Shown: in pieces, positions 6,869-36,208 of the stretch | Layout of the letters: each line of letters begins with the position of its first letter | How positions within the stretch are numbered: position 1 is the first letter of the stretch | Source: Lentisphaerota bacterium | Lineage (GTDB): Bacteria > Verrucomicrobiota > Kiritimatiellia > PWTM01 | Assembly: GCA_016873715.1 (NCBI GenBank) | Contig: VGWF01000035.1 | Location: forward strand, 1 to 37,244 | Length of the DNA stretch: 37,244 nt | Direction: 5' to 3' | The notes under the pieces: model-generated | What the model was told of the DNA's origin: nothing | What the model saw: the letters and a program-made list of their open reading frames with translations, nothing else | Database searches by the model: none | Program-made: the position numbers and the translations under genes

Positions 6869-6892
6869 GGCCGCGACGGAGCGCGGCCCTCC
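6869..6892 (-). repeat. REP hairpin, CTCCGT-loop class
   Basis: On the minus strand: GGAG foot, then a 7-bp stem GGCCGCG/CGCGGCC with the six-base loop CTCCGT. It faces a second copy at 6929-6952 on the other strand, a paired arrangement typical of REP doublets (BIMEs), in the gap between two convergent-free minus-strand genes. Confidence 0.7.
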
Positions 6893-6928: not shown

Positions 6929-6952
6929 GGAGGGCGCCGCTTCGTCGGCGCC
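6929..6952 (+). repeat. REP hairpin, CTTCGT-loop class
   Basis: GGAG foot, 7-bp stem GGCGCCG/CGGCGCC and loop CTTCGT. It is the partner of the inverted copy at 6869-6892: the stem bases differ but pairing is kept and the foot is identical. Confidence 0.7.
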
Positions 6953-31886: not shown

Positions 31887-31915
31887 GATATAGCCCCGGC
31901 CCCGCGGGCTGTCAA
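31887..31915 (-). promoter_or_regulatory. Consensus sigma-70 promoter of the ABC-ATPase operon
   Basis: Minus-strand TTGACA (31915-31910, perfect) and TATATC (31892-31887) with 17-bp spacing. The -35 box overlaps the stop codon of the pyruvyl-transferase gene. Start near 31880, giving a leader of about 45 bases. Confidence 0.7.
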
Positions 31916-33192
31916 CGCGCCGGCATCGAGCGTGCGACCACCGCCATGGTCTCGCGCTGGCGCCGTTCGACCAAGGCACGGGCCTTCGCCACCTTCGCGC
32001 GCGCGGCGGCCGGATCGCGCGCCATCGCCAGGACCGCCGGCAGCAGCTTCGGGATCTCCTCCGCCACGTCGAAGTCGAACAGCCAGTCGCCGAGCCCGAT
32101 GTCGCGCCACATGATCCCCTTGCTCGTCTGCTCGGCGAAGCGGCAGACGATCGCGGGAACGCCGTTGCCGATGCACATGATCGGCGAGTGCATCTCGAGG
32201 CCGAAGAGGCCGGCAGACCGCACGTAGGTGCTCAGCGCCTCGTCCGTGAGCCAGAAGCGCTCCCGCCAGACGACCCCCTTGCGGACGTCCTCCGGAAGCT
32301 TGTCGACGATCATGTCCTTCCCGACCGCCATCTGGGTCATGTCCTCCGGACAGACAAGCACCTTGAGTCCCGTCTCGCGGACCACCGCCGCCACGGCCTC
32401 GCGCAGCGGCGCGATGTCGCGCTCCTTCATCGCCTCGTTGCGCTCGTGCTTCGCGGCGTCCATGGGCCGGTCCCGGATCGTCCAGTACGGCGTGAAGCGG
32501 AGGCGCGGAATGCAGCAGAGGAACTTCCCGGTCTCGAGTCCGTTCGCGCGCAGGAAGGCGTCCGCCGCCGCGTCGTTGCGCAGGTCGCAGGCGAAGGCGC
32601 CGTCGGGACCGAACTCCATCACGGGCGCCTTCACGCCGTCGGCCTTCGCCTTCGCCAGCGACACGGTGTCGCGGAAGGTGACGAACTTCGCGCGGCTCAT
32701 CAGGCCGCGGACCTTCTCGTCGGCGCCGCCGTACGTGATGCCGTAGATGCCGAACGGTTTGCCCGTCGCCTGGTCGAAGGCCGCGATGTCCTTCGCGGCG
32801 ACGAACGACGGGCCCGAGCCGTGGAGAAGGAAATCGCACCAGGCGACCGTGTCGGCGAGGTCGGCGCTGGATGCCCTGCCGTCCGCGCCGATCGATCCCT
32901 TCACGATCTTCAGCGCCGGGAACCGCTTGTGCTCCATCGCGGCGACCTCGTCCGTCAGATCGCCCGACGCCCACAGCCGCACCTCGGCGCCGGGGATGTG
33001 CTTCTCGATCAGCGCCAGCACGCCCGGCGTGTGCGCGATGTCCCCGATGTTCACCACCTGCCACGACGACCGCAGCAGGATCCGGGGCCGCCGCTCCGCC
33101 GCCGCCCCCGCCACCGCCGCGGCGAGCGCCGTCCCCATGCCGCCGAGAAAGGCCCTGCGGGATGTCCCGCCCGCCTCCGATCCTGTGCTCAT
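31912..33192 (-). CDS. Tat-exported polysaccharide pyruvyl transferase family protein
   Basis: A 426-residue protein. TSRRAFLGG (10-18) plus the Ala-rich stretch to about residue 37 is a twin-arginine signal. The rest matches the polysaccharide pyruvyl transferase fold: SWQVVNIGDIAHTPG, FLLHGSGPSF, FGIYGITYGGAD, FVTFRD, GLEMHSPIMCIGNGVPAIVCRF near the C terminus. Pyruvyl transferases normally use cytosolic phosphoenolpyruvate, so an exported member is surprising; it may have a different role. AGGAGA lies about 8 bases before the ATG. REP hairpins sit immediately upstream. Confidence 0.7.
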   Translation of the reverse strand: MSTGSEAGGTSRRAFLGGMGTALAAAVAGAAAERRPRILLRSSWQVVNIGDIAHTPGVLALIEKHIPGAEVRLWASGDLTDEVAAMEHKRFPALKIVKGSIGADGRASSADLADTVAWCDFLLHGSGPSFVAAKDIAAFDQATGKPFGIYGITYGGADEKVRGLMSRAKFVTFRDTVSLAKAKADGVKAPVMEFGPDGAFACDLRNDAAADAFLRANGLETGKFLCCIPRLRFTPYWTIRDRPMDAAKHERNEAMKERDIAPLREAVAAVVRETGLKVLVCPEDMTQMAVGKDMIVDKLPEDVRKGVVWRERFWLTDEALSTYVRSAGLFGLEMHSPIMCIGNGVPAIVCRFAEQTSKGIMWRDIGLGDWLFDFDVAEEIPKLLPAVLAMARDPAAARAKVAKARALVERRQRETMAVVARSMPAR

Positions 33193-33216
33193 CGTGTCAT
33201 TCTCCTGTGTCCATGC

Positions 33217-33242
33217 GGCCGGCGTGGCAGCCGGCCCTCCCG
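33217..33242 (-). repeat. REP hairpin, TGCCAC-loop class (copy 1)
   Basis: Minus strand: CGGGAG foot, then stem GGCCGGC/GCCGGCC with loop TGCCAC. It faces the copy at 33275-33300 across a 32-bp spacer and lies 24 bp upstream of the pyruvyl-transferase start codon. Confidence 0.85.
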
Positions 33243-33274
33243 TACCGCGTCCAACGGCCCGATCGTCCGCCATT

Positions 33275-33300
33275 CGGGAGGGCGCGGTGCCACCCGCGCC
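33275..33300 (+). repeat. REP hairpin, TGCCAC-loop class (copy 2)
   Basis: CGGGAG foot, stem GGCGCGG/CCGCGCC, loop TGCCAC. Its stem differs from copy 1 at paired positions while the foot and loop are unchanged. Confidence 0.85.
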
Positions 33301-33324
33301 GGATGCGCCCGATATCGGTACCCT

Positions 33325-33489
33325 TCACCACGAAAGGAATCCCACTTCCCCCTGATAGGGCCAGTCCTCCGGCCGCGCCACAAGTCCCTTTCGCACCGGG
33401 TTCATGGCTACATAGGACCATTTCTCCCCGTAGTGCCGGGCGTCCCGGAGTTGGGTGTCCCAGCAGTCCCGCTGCCACAACCCGGTCCC
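33325..33489 (-). pseudogene. Duplicated intact C-terminal fragment of the RAYT transposase
   Basis: About 55 codons reading WQRDCWDTQLRD, then KWSYVAMNPVRKGLV and PEDWPYQGEV to a stop at 33325. This is the expected C-terminal part of a REP-associated tyrosine transposase, in frame. It lacks its own N-terminal half. It is the undamaged twin of the frameshifted copy in the next unit. Confidence 0.75.
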
Positions 33490-33515
33490 GGCCGGCGTGG
33501 CAGCCGGCCCTCCCG
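33490..33515 (-). repeat. REP hairpin, TGCCAC-loop class (copy 3)
   Basis: Same sequence as copies 1 and 5; it opens the second tandem unit and faces copy 4. Confidence 0.85.
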
Positions 33516-33547
33516 CACCGCATCCAACGGCCCGATCGTCCGCCATT

Positions 33548-33573
33548 CGGGAGGGCGCGGTGCCACCCGCGCC
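33548..33573 (+). repeat. REP hairpin, TGCCAC-loop class (copy 4)
   Basis: Identical to copy 2; partner of copy 3 across a spacer containing CATCCAACGGCCCGATCGTC, a spacer also found between other pairs here. Confidence 0.85.
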
Positions 33574-33763
33574 GGATGCGCCCGATATCGGTACCCTTCA
33601 CCACAAAAGGAATCCCACTTCCCCCTGATACGGCCAGTCCTCCGGCCGCGCCACAAGTCCCTTTCGCACCGGGTTCATGGCTACATAGGACCATATTCTC
33701 CCCGTAGGGCCGGGCGTCCCGGAGTTGGGTGTCCCAGCAGTCCCGCTGCCACAACCCGGTCCC

Positions 33764-33789
33764 GGCCGGCGTGGCAGCCGGCCCTCCCG
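33764..33789 (-). repeat. REP hairpin, TGCCAC-loop class (copy 5, inside the RAYT frame)
   Basis: Third copy of this REP, translated as GGPAATPAG in the RAYT frame, just before WQRDCW. It matches the ends of the tandem units, so it may have served as a recombination site. Confidence 0.85.
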
Positions 33790-34111
33790 GCGGGGGAGCC
33801 AGGGGACCGTGTCCCTCCACGGCACGCGCCACCATCCCCTTCCAGTATGCAACCCAGCGCTTCACGTTCTCGCTCTCCCGGTCGGCGGGCGAGCAGAACA
33901 GATGCACGTGATCCGGCATGATCATGTAACGGCCCACCGTCCACCGCTCCGCTCTCGACCATGCCTCCCGAAGCAGCGCATGCATCGACGGGCACGCCAG
34001 CACGGGACGGCGGTCCTGCGTGCAGACGGTGACGAACAGGATGGTGGCCTGGTTGAAGCGCTCCACGTTCGCGAGATGCACGGGGTGCTTCCGCTCGGGA
34101 CGCCCCGCCAC

Positions 34112-34137
34112 GGCCGGCGTGGCAGCCGGCCCTCCCG
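34112..34137 (-). repeat. REP hairpin, TGCCAC-loop class (copy 6)
   Basis: Stem GGCCGGC/GCCGGCC, loop TGCCAC, next to the first conserved residues of the RAYT domain. Confidence 0.85.
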
Positions 34138-34169
34138 CTTCGCATCCAACGGCCTGATCGTCCGCCGCT

Positions 34170-34195
34170 CGGGAGGGCGCGGTGCCACCCGCGCC
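34170..34195 (+). repeat. REP hairpin, TGCCAC-loop class (copy 7)
   Basis: Stem GGCGCGG/CCGCGCC, loop TGCCAC. Inverted relative to copy 6 and 54 bp from copy 8. Confidence 0.85.
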
Positions 34196-34223
34196 GCATC
34201 CAACGGCCCGATTGACCACCGTT

Positions 34224-34249
34224 CGGGAGGGCGCGGTGCCACCCGCGCC
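34224..34249 (+). repeat. REP hairpin, TGCCAC-loop class (copy 8)
   Basis: Same as copy 7, spaced exactly 54 bp, so it codes an 18-residue repeat (GAGGTAPSR...) when read in the RAYT frame. Confidence 0.85.
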
Positions 34250-34411
34250 GAATGCGCCCGTGCCCGCCGGCAACATCCCCTGCATCCCCCGCAGGTCCGC
34301 CGGCTCCATCGGCCGCAGGCGGAGGCCGCCGTTCACCGTCGTGGAATCCGTCACGCAACTCCCCTCATGCCGGTGCGGCCGAAGCCGTCGCGGCCCCGGC
34401 GCCCGCGTTGA

Positions 34412-36208
34412 TCATTTCGCCCCTGCCGCGGCCGCGCGAGCCCTGGAGTCCTGCCAGTCCCGCGTCCCTCCGAGCACGCGCAGCCACTGCGCCCCGGCGG
34501 CGATCAGGTGCGCGTAGCCGCCGGTGTCCGAGAACGCATCGAACGCCACGCCCGGCAGCGCCGACTGGCATCCGATCCCGGTCGGGATGTAGCCGTACGC
34601 GTCGAAGATCGCCTCCCACGTGCGCAGCCCCAGCCCCAGTTCGCGCTCGAGCGCCGCGCGGACGTCGGCGGACGAAGGTTCCGCCGTGCCGGTTCCGGGT
34701 TCCGCGTTCCGGGTTCCGCGTTGGATGTTGGGTGTTGGCTGTTGGTTGTTGGACGTTGAATCCGCCGTTCGATGTTGGGCGTTCGATGTTCGATGTTCGA
34801 TGTTCTCTTCTGGAAAGAACCCCGGCTTCCGTATCCTCTCCATCGCCTCGTCCCACAGCCCCGGCCGCTCCGCGAGCGCCTGGAGCGCCCAGCCGCTGAC
34901 GATCATGTTCTGCGGGCCGAAGCGTGAACCGATGGGACGCGGACCGCCGTGCGGCCCCTTTCGCTCCGAGCGCAGATCCTGCGGCCGGCCGTCGACGAAC
35001 TTGTAGGGATGGAGGTCGAAGACCCCGATGCCCGGCGGCGCGGGCGCGTCGTCGCAATAGGCGCGGTAGAGCATCGGCAGCGTGAACGCGTCGTAGACGA
35101 GGCGGAACGCGGCGGGCGCCGCCAGCGATCCCTCCCGCGCGACCGCGACATGGAACTGGTACACCTGGTCGTCCGCGAAGCCGGGCACGCTGACCGGCTC
35201 GCCGGGCTTGAACTCGACGACCGCGCGCCGCCAGTCGTTGCGGGCGGTCTCGACCGAGGCCCACGTCGTCTCGGGCAGCGACCGGCGGACCGCGTCGTCC
35301 CCCGACGCCACCGCGAGCGCCGCGCGCACCATCGGGATCGAGGGCGCCCCGTGGCGGGCGCGGCACTCCTGGAGGTTCCGCGCCGCGTCCGCGACCTGGG
35401 CCGCCAGCGCCCGCTCCGCGGGGTCCTTCGAGTCGTGCAGAAGCTCCCACGCGAGGAGGAGCATCACGGCGAGATCCTGCGCCATGTGGCTCGACGAGCC
35501 GTGGGAGTAGCCGCTCAGGCGCCCCTCGGGGTTGGGTCCGCTCCATTCGTTGCGGCCGGCGAAATTGACGTGCCGGTCGCCGTCGCGACGGTTGAGCATG
35601 TCGAGGCTGACCGACGCGCCGTCGTCCCACCAGTACGGGACGAAGCCCTTCTCGCGGCCCTGCAGAAGCCACTCCTTGCTCCCGCGCCAGCCGCGGTCGT
35701 CGCCGGGACGGCCGTCGTTGCGGTCGGAGGTGAAGAGCGCGTCGCCGCCGTTGAGCATCCGGACGTAGAACGGGAGCTGCCACCGCACGAGGACTTCGCG
35801 GTAGAACGGGTCGCCCGTCGCGCGCGCGGCGTGGACCATCGCGGCGGCGAACCAGGCGCCGTCGTGCATCGTGTCCAAGGCCTCGCCCTGGATCCACTGC
35901 TGCGGCGCGCCGGACTTCGCGACGTGGAAGTACTCGTAGATCATCCCGCGCTGCGGCGAATCGACGCGCTTGAGGTGGTGGTCGAGGACGTACGTCGCGA
36001 GGCGCTTCATGAACGCGCGGGTCTCGTCCGCCGTCATCGGCGGCTTCCCGCTCCAGGCGCGCGTCCAGGCGGGCCCGGACGCCGTCGGCGCGGCCGGGAC
36101 GGAGCCCGGCCCTCCAGCCGCGTTGGTCGGATTACGGTCGTTCGCCGCGGCCGCTCCGGCCGCCAGGATGACCAGGATGCCGATCCGCAGGTCCGCCGCG
36201 CGACGCAT
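34412..36208 (-). CDS. Secreted protein of unknown function, perhaps an alpha/alpha-barrel enzyme
   Basis: A 598-residue protein I cannot assign. Residues 1-19 look like a signal peptide. The bulk is helix-rich with conserved-looking aromatic patches (GMIYEYFHVAKSG, ALDTMHDGAWFAAAMVHAA, WWDDGASVSLDML, SGYSHGSSSHMAQDLAVML, FDLHPYKFVDG), suggesting an (alpha/alpha)6 fold like that of some glycoside hydrolases or lyases. Two repeat elements lie inside the frame: a REP hairpin at residues about 32-39 and a heptamer array in the region about 470-510, after GFFPEE. The rest resumes with SADVRAALERELG. GGAGGGTGAGG precedes the ATG at 36208. The gene is followed by the RAYT region. Confidence 0.7.
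   Translation of the reverse strand: MRRAADLRIGILVILAAGAAAANDRNPTNAAGGPGSVPAAPTASGPAWTRAWSGKPPMTADETRAFMKRLATYVLDHHLKRVDSPQRGMIYEYFHVAKSGAPQQWIQGEALDTMHDGAWFAAAMVHAARATGDPFYREVLVRWQLPFYVRMLNGGDALFTSDRNDGRPGDDRGWRGSKEWLLQGREKGFVPYWWDDGASVSLDMLNRRDGDRHVNFAGRNEWSGPNPEGRLSGYSHGSSSHMAQDLAVMLLLAWELLHDSKDPAERALAAQVADAARNLQECRARHGAPSIPMVRAALAVASGDDAVRRSLPETTWASVETARNDWRRAVVEFKPGEPVSVPGFADDQVYQFHVAVAREGSLAAPAAFRLVYDAFTLPMLYRAYCDDAPAPPGIGVFDLHPYKFVDGRPQDLRSERKGPHGGPRPIGSRFGPQNMIVSGWALQALAERPGLWDEAMERIRKPGFFPEENIEHRTSNAQHRTADSTSNNQQPTPNIQRGTRNAEPGTGTAEPSSADVRAALERELGLGLRTWEAIFDAYGYIPTGIGCQSALPGVAFDAFSDTGGYAHLIAAGAQWLRVLGGTRDWQDSRARAAAAGAK
34691..34802. repeat. Heptanucleotide array inside a coding sequence (16 in-phase units)
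   Basis: Sixteen 7-bp units in unbroken phase. They start as GGTTCCG types, switch to TGTTGGN, then TTCGATG, and include one decayed TCCGCCG. On the coding strand the frame stays open and gives heptad peptides such as NIEHRTS and DSTSNNQ. The same GATGTT and GTTGTTGG units occur at 8688-8785. Confidence 0.88.
36092..36115 (-). repeat. REP hairpin, CTCCGT-loop class, inside a coding sequence
   Basis: Minus strand GGAG foot, stem GGCCGGG/CCCGGCC, loop CTCCGT. It lies in the N-terminal part of the secreted-protein gene, just after the signal peptide, and reads GGPGSVPAA in frame. Confidence 0.75.

Follow-up and report, generated by a model that had tools for sequence, protein, structure and literature searches.

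A gene for a REP-associated tyrosine transposase (RAYT) lies on the minus strand towards the end of the window (the whole 37,244-nt stretch analysed, contig C35 of a 5.13-Mb genome assembled in 289 contigs). Hairpins with the loop TGCCAC surround the gene, and three hairpins with the loops CTCCGT and CTTCGT are located elsewhere in the window (Table 1). The translation carries the HUH motif MPDHVHLF. Family NF047646 (REP_Tyr_transpos) matches the gene at 33659-34054 with an E value of 7.7e-13 and 48.6 bits, under its curated cut-off of 80 bits; a further profile match extends over 33632-34102. Named relatives of this RAYT come mostly from metagenome assemblies of Lentisphaerae, Kiritimatiellae, and Verrucomicrobia, which places the host near these groups. 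The neighbouring ORF, also on the minus strand, matches polysaccharide pyruvyl transferase (PF04230).

Table 1. Hairpins (REPs) and parts of the RAYT gene in the window
Feature	Positions	Strand	Stem	Loop	Remarks
REP	6869-6892	-	GGCCGCG	CTCCGT	left arm of the genome's commonest doublet type
REP	6929-6952	+	GGCGCCG	CTTCGT	right arm, doublet with 6869-6892
REP	33217-33240	-	GGCCGGC	TGCCAC	outermost REP; overlapped by neighbouring ORF 31912-33273 as listed
REP	33277-33300	+	GGCGCGG	TGCCAC	inverted doublet with 33217-33240
REP	33490-33513	-	GGCCGGC	TGCCAC	
REP	33550-33573	+	GGCGCGG	TGCCAC	inverted doublet with 33490-33513
REP	33764-33787	-		TGCCAC	in frame within RAYT linker, translated GGPAATPA
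REP	34112-34135	-	GGCCGGC	TGCCAC	directly upstream of RAYT core, same open frame
REP	34172-34195	+	GGCGCGG	TGCCAC	inverted doublet with 34112-34135
REP	34226-34249	+	GGCGCGG	TGCCAC	
REP	36092-36115	-	GGCCGGG	CTCCGT	single
RAYT, N-terminal and HUH part	33690..34111	-			possible GTG start 34111; frameshift ~33695
Tandem 3' duplication, first copy	33489..33763	-			RAYT C-terminal part, frameshifted, and REP doublet; profile match 33628-33699
Tandem 3' duplication, second copy	33216..33489	-			RAYT C-terminal part in frame, headless, and REP doublet; profile match 33355-33486

All eleven hairpins are 24-nt units made of the foot GGAG, a perfect 7-bp stem, and a 6-nt loop. Under the identical definition, 200 dinucleotide shuffles of the window gave a mean of 0.09 hairpins and a maximum of 2. 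Every hairpin named in the earlier note was recovered at its position, as was the split into eight TGCCAC and three CTCCGT/CTTCGT loops. The same note described a GGAGGGC foot followed by a 7-bp stem, which counts three stem bases twice: the foot is GGAG, and the GGC after it is the start of the stem, where some other copies in the genome have GGG. The 7-mer GGAGGGC alone is barely enriched, with 24 occurrences in the window against 16.7 expected; the special feature is the hairpin and not the bare 7-mer. Only five distinct stems occur in the window, and its TGCCAC copies are not independent, because a tandem duplication of 273/274 bp, which carries the 3' end of the RAYT together with a REP doublet, produced some of the eight.

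This duplication also bears on the state of the gene. The N-terminal and HUH part is readable as far as WQRDCWDTQLRDARPYGE; the frame is then lost because GAATATGG occupies the place of GAAATGG in the duplicate. In an alignment with E. coli TnpAREP, whose catalytic residue is Tyr115 (Y115F is the catalytic mutant; PMC8266576), the frame breaks approximately three codons ahead of the matching position. The catalytic Tyr is thus missing in frame from the window copy and present in the headless duplicate and in intact relatives. The window RAYT is probably inactive as read from this sequence, and if the sequence is right, no intact RAYT of the TGCCAC class was found in the assembly. The gene could instead be intact in the living cell, with the frameshift or the tandem duplication being an error of sequencing or assembly. 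One of the differences between the two 3' copies, a single base, decides the frame, the 289-contig assembly is fragmented, and contigs C83 and C144 carry REPs of the TGCCAC class at their very ends, so such repeats do trouble assembly. We nevertheless regard an error as unlikely: the two 3' copies also differ at several other positions, and the duplication is therefore not an exact artefact, while the sole copy that bears the HUH motif goes out of frame ahead of the catalytic Tyr and the assembly contains no second RAYT of this class.

Since some of the window copies are duplicates, the claim of covariation requires the genome-wide set. Pattern searches that fixed the foot, the loop, and the two outer stem pairs returned 35 copies of the TGCCAC class and 199 of the CTYCGT class across the genome, and none for either reversed pattern; the wider pattern T[GT]CCAC gave 51 matches. 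Only the five inner stem pairs are informative, because the search pattern fixed the two outermost. Among the listed matches, 17 distinct 24-mer types were present, in which 99.2% of cells were paired, compared with 67.8% after shuffling and 33-48% in slid controls. Cells changed on both sides numbered 30 against 9.6, and double-sided changes occurred at all five informative pairs. Across these genome-wide copies the foot does not vary, each class has a fixed loop, and the stems covary, so that the structure-conserving pattern proposed from the window holds for distinct stem types and not just for its duplicated copies. Inverted doublets with arms approximately 60 bp apart are formed in both classes; the doublet GGCCGCG(-)/GGCGCCG(+), also approximately 60 bp apart and represented in the window by the pair at 6869 and 6929, occurs on many contigs. 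Of the 388 genomes of the phylum, 104 had CTYCGT matches and 54 had T[GT]CCAC matches, counting genomes with one match only.

GC-rich hairpins close to gene ends might also be transcription terminators or structured RNAs with no relation to a transposase, and an RNA form is possible for them. No T-run follows the stems, and no Rfam match for the hairpins was found. A constant single-stranded foot on one side, the arrangement in inverted doublets, the high copy number, and the recurrence of the hairpins next to RAYT genes and within them across many genomes make this reading extremely improbable.

The association with RAYT genes extends throughout the genome. Matches to NF047646 occur at seven places (the window counted once), and four RAYTs belong to the close clade, each located among its own REP type. 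At the window RAYT, 8 of the 35 genomic TGCCAC copies fall within approximately 1 kb, where a Poisson expectation is 0.007 (tandem-duplicated copies counted separately); the enrichment asserted in the earlier note is therefore borne out, and the window RAYT may serve the TGCCAC class. The same note supposed that the other class has a different or lost RAYT. A loss does not hold. The C147 RAYT is flanked by six CTCCGT REPs, mainly with stem GGGCACG, and the C11 RAYT is surrounded by CTCCGT and CTACGT REPs with stems GGCCCGC and GGCCGAC, with two CTCCGT REPs inside the gene. Both genes sit amid CTCCGT hairpins, and the CTCCGT class has therefore kept its transposase; a CTCCGT class devoid of a RAYT is ruled out. 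The C170 RAYT is accompanied by REPs of the CTACG-loop type. In these C170 REPs (L001:1171-2626) the loop is the 5-nt CTACG and the stem, GGCCGAG/CGAGGCC, contains two G-A mismatches side by side, unlike the genome's other stems, which are perfect. A more distant RAYT on C117 (L004) is found with the foot GTAG, stems CGCCACG or CCGCGGG, and the loop GCTACGA.

Across the 388 phylum genomes, at least 10 CTYCGT copies were present in 18 of the 38 genomes with this RAYT clade and in 49 of the 350 without it (p 5e-6, from counts taken by hand). No RAYT of this clade was found in the genomes G001, G053, and G275 despite their many T[GT]CCAC copies. The loop classes are mostly, not strictly, separate. 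In the loci compared, 79 distinct inverted doublets comprised 42 CTYCG+CTYCG, 27 TKCCAC+TKCCAC, and 10 mixed pairs, so that 69 of 79 were homogeneous in loop; the mixed ones came from only two places, a tandem array on C101 and the RAYT linker of one relative. The C101 array (L041:1493-2328) is built of 126-bp units that combine one CTCCG arm with one TGCCAC arm. A second tandem array, on C107 (L042:1024-1935), has 89-bp units in which a TTCCAC arm is joined to a TGCCAC arm. Complementarity between foot and loop is seen in some families, namely GGAG with the CTCC of CTCCGT, and GTAG with the CTAC of GCTACGA and CTACGC (C117 and L083). Foot-loop pairing was not established as a rule, given that a test exchanging feet between loop families gave p 0.11 and that TGCCAC pairs poorly.

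REP elements are among the commonest bacterial repeats. RAYT (TnpAREP) genes and their REPs, organized in BIMEs or REPINs, have been described as REPtrons (Nunvar 2010, PMC2817692; Bertels and Rainey 2011, PMC3116915; Di Nocera 2013, PMC3733652). Similar to these systems, the window contains an HUH Y1 gene between high-copy palindromes that bear a fixed tetranucleotide at one side and form inverted doublets, and the genome, like those with known REPtrons, carries several repeat-specific examples. Unlike the described REPtrons, which have feet GT(A/G)G or CGTC, it shows the foot GGAG, a 6-nt loop, and two different stems per doublet, although a GTAG foot is present at the C117 RAYT of this genome. 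The GGAG foot did not occur in the main texts of the open-access REP literature searched and may be described elsewhere. We consider that the locus is a REPtron, with a RAYT/TnpAREP of the HUH Y1 family and its cognate REP elements, at a probability of roughly 0.88.

Group 3 TnpAREP enzymes depend on the foot, on particular loop bases, and on a stem without breaks, and less on the stem sequence (Corneloup 2021, PMC8266576); the foot also has a part in selecting where cleavage occurs (PMC8266576). The present hairpins share with that group perfect palindromic stems and conserved loop bases. They differ in their GGAG foot and 6-nt loops from Group 3, which has a GTAG foot needed for cleavage and 3-4 nt loops. 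By analogy, the RAYT clade of the window may work in the same way: the enzyme would read foot and loop in folded single-stranded DNA and might bind, cleave, and mobilize the REP, while the stem would need only to pair, so that new stem families could arise and spread with foot and loop unchanged. A foot that does not vary, a loop particular to each class, and stems whose bases change only in pairs would be the expected trace of such an enzyme. The REPs often lie in inverted doublets with their feet inward, the BIME/REPIN layout, and copies pile up beside the RAYT gene; the window RAYT would later have been damaged by the tandem duplication of its 3' end and by the one-base frameshift. The small transposases of this genome appear to spread a hairpin family of hundreds of copies. 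In the literature compared, recognition of REPs by a RAYT has been worked out only for gammaproteobacterial systems of the GTAG type. This genome may offer a natural series of several RAYT/REP pairs whose foot is different, whose loop is fixed, and whose stems vary freely, so that bases that are read could be separated from those that need only pair.

REPs are also found inside the transposases themselves; the in-frame REP of the window, absent from the earlier note, turned out to be the most informative feature of the locus. The stretch between the HUH motif and the WQRD motif spans 28-43 residues in 83 of 99 distinct RAYTs and 47-143 residues in the other 16. Perfect REPs, foot plus hairpin, lie in frame in 13 of the 16 long linkers and in none of the 83 short ones (Fisher p 9e-14, with related genes treated as independent); the short-linker genes include those of C147 and C170 in the window genome. 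The remaining three long-linker RAYTs (L064, L070, and L148) contain REP-like hairpins with mismatches, as read by eye. No REPs were found elsewhere in the RAYT domain among the 99 distinct RAYTs. Of 16 cases of linker REPs on the sense strand, 13 are read in a single phase, and the encoded peptides are rich in Gly, Ser, Thr, Ala, and Pro. Linker REPs repeat at 30 nt in the RAYT of L060 and at 39 nt in that of L071, both multiples of three; for comparison, the repeats of two arrays elsewhere in the window genome measure 126 and 89 bp. In the AlphaFold model of the L060 protein, the insert is placed between the helix at residues 74-89 and the strand at 146-150 in an otherwise confident fold, and insert residues 99-135 have a pLDDT below 50 and are modelled as disordered. 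The PDB entry 4er8, a RAYT bound to a REP hairpin, is both the best match of this model in a fold search (E 2.5e-7) and the nearest solved sequence (E 1.4e-8).

On a tree of 80 RAYTs, one ancestral insertion for all in-frame REPs is ruled out (AU p 6e-7), whereas a single clade is possible for the group of five long-linker RAYTs with T[GT]CCAC loops (AU p 0.44). The tree is poorly resolved, being based on 133 columns; parsimony requires a minimum of 11 changes on one tree, starred branches force only 2, and gains are indistinguishable from losses.

In-frame REPs have previously been reported for TnpAREP genes of subclass 2.4, in which strand 3 and helix C bracket the insert and the motif reads NH[IFV]H (Quentin et al. 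2018, PMC6006769). In the present clade, as in subclass 2.4, the REPs lie between the HuH and Y motifs. Unlike that subclass, the insert of the L060 model occupies the loop from helix C to strand 4, with the elements named by order and not by superposition, and the clade motif is DH[VI]H, in contrast to the motif tabulated in that paper. Verrucomicrobia did not occur in its main text. In-frame REPs as such are known from other groups; the foot, the HUH motif, and the protein loop are what differ here.

The REPs in the linker may have a role for the transposase. GGAG-clade RAYTs would then have repeatedly taken their own REPs into the loop between helix C and strand 4, where these would act on the enzyme: as an internal target in its gene or mRNA they could restrain expression, or as a flexible arm they could help it hold its DNA. 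Long linkers are almost always REP-derived and lack a single origin, in-frame REPs were amplified in L060 and L071, and the insertion site is near the region that recognizes REPs in other subclasses (PMC6006769). Yet most RAYTs manage without linker REPs, the model shows the insert as disordered, there is free variation in both linker length and REP class, and one permissive loop would equally give recurrence at one site. Thus, both the repeated capture of REPs for such an effect and the effect itself seem improbable to us.

Tolerance would be the simplest account of the in-frame REPs. REPs may be tolerated in a surface linker between the helix that follows the HUH strand and the WQRD strand because a 24-nt unit adds eight codons, free of stops in the frames used; several RAYT lineages would for that reason carry their own REPs in frame at this place. 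The recurrent capture at one linker may therefore mark where a RAYT accepts extra sequence, and the RAYTs with linker REPs could serve as ready-made variants for asking whether an internal target affects the enzyme.

Two other genomes show longer open frames that include a RAYT. In L148:1-2000 (G249 contig C33), CobB/CobQ-like domains lie in an open frame that continues in frame into the RAYT; this could be a fusion, or merely a missing stop in high-GC DNA. In G002, a member of the same family as the window genome, an ORF of 1386 aa on contig C7 (L140:245-4405) combines an Eco57I-type methylase region, a REP array, and a RAYT in one frame, and the N-terminal part of this RAYT is duplicated.
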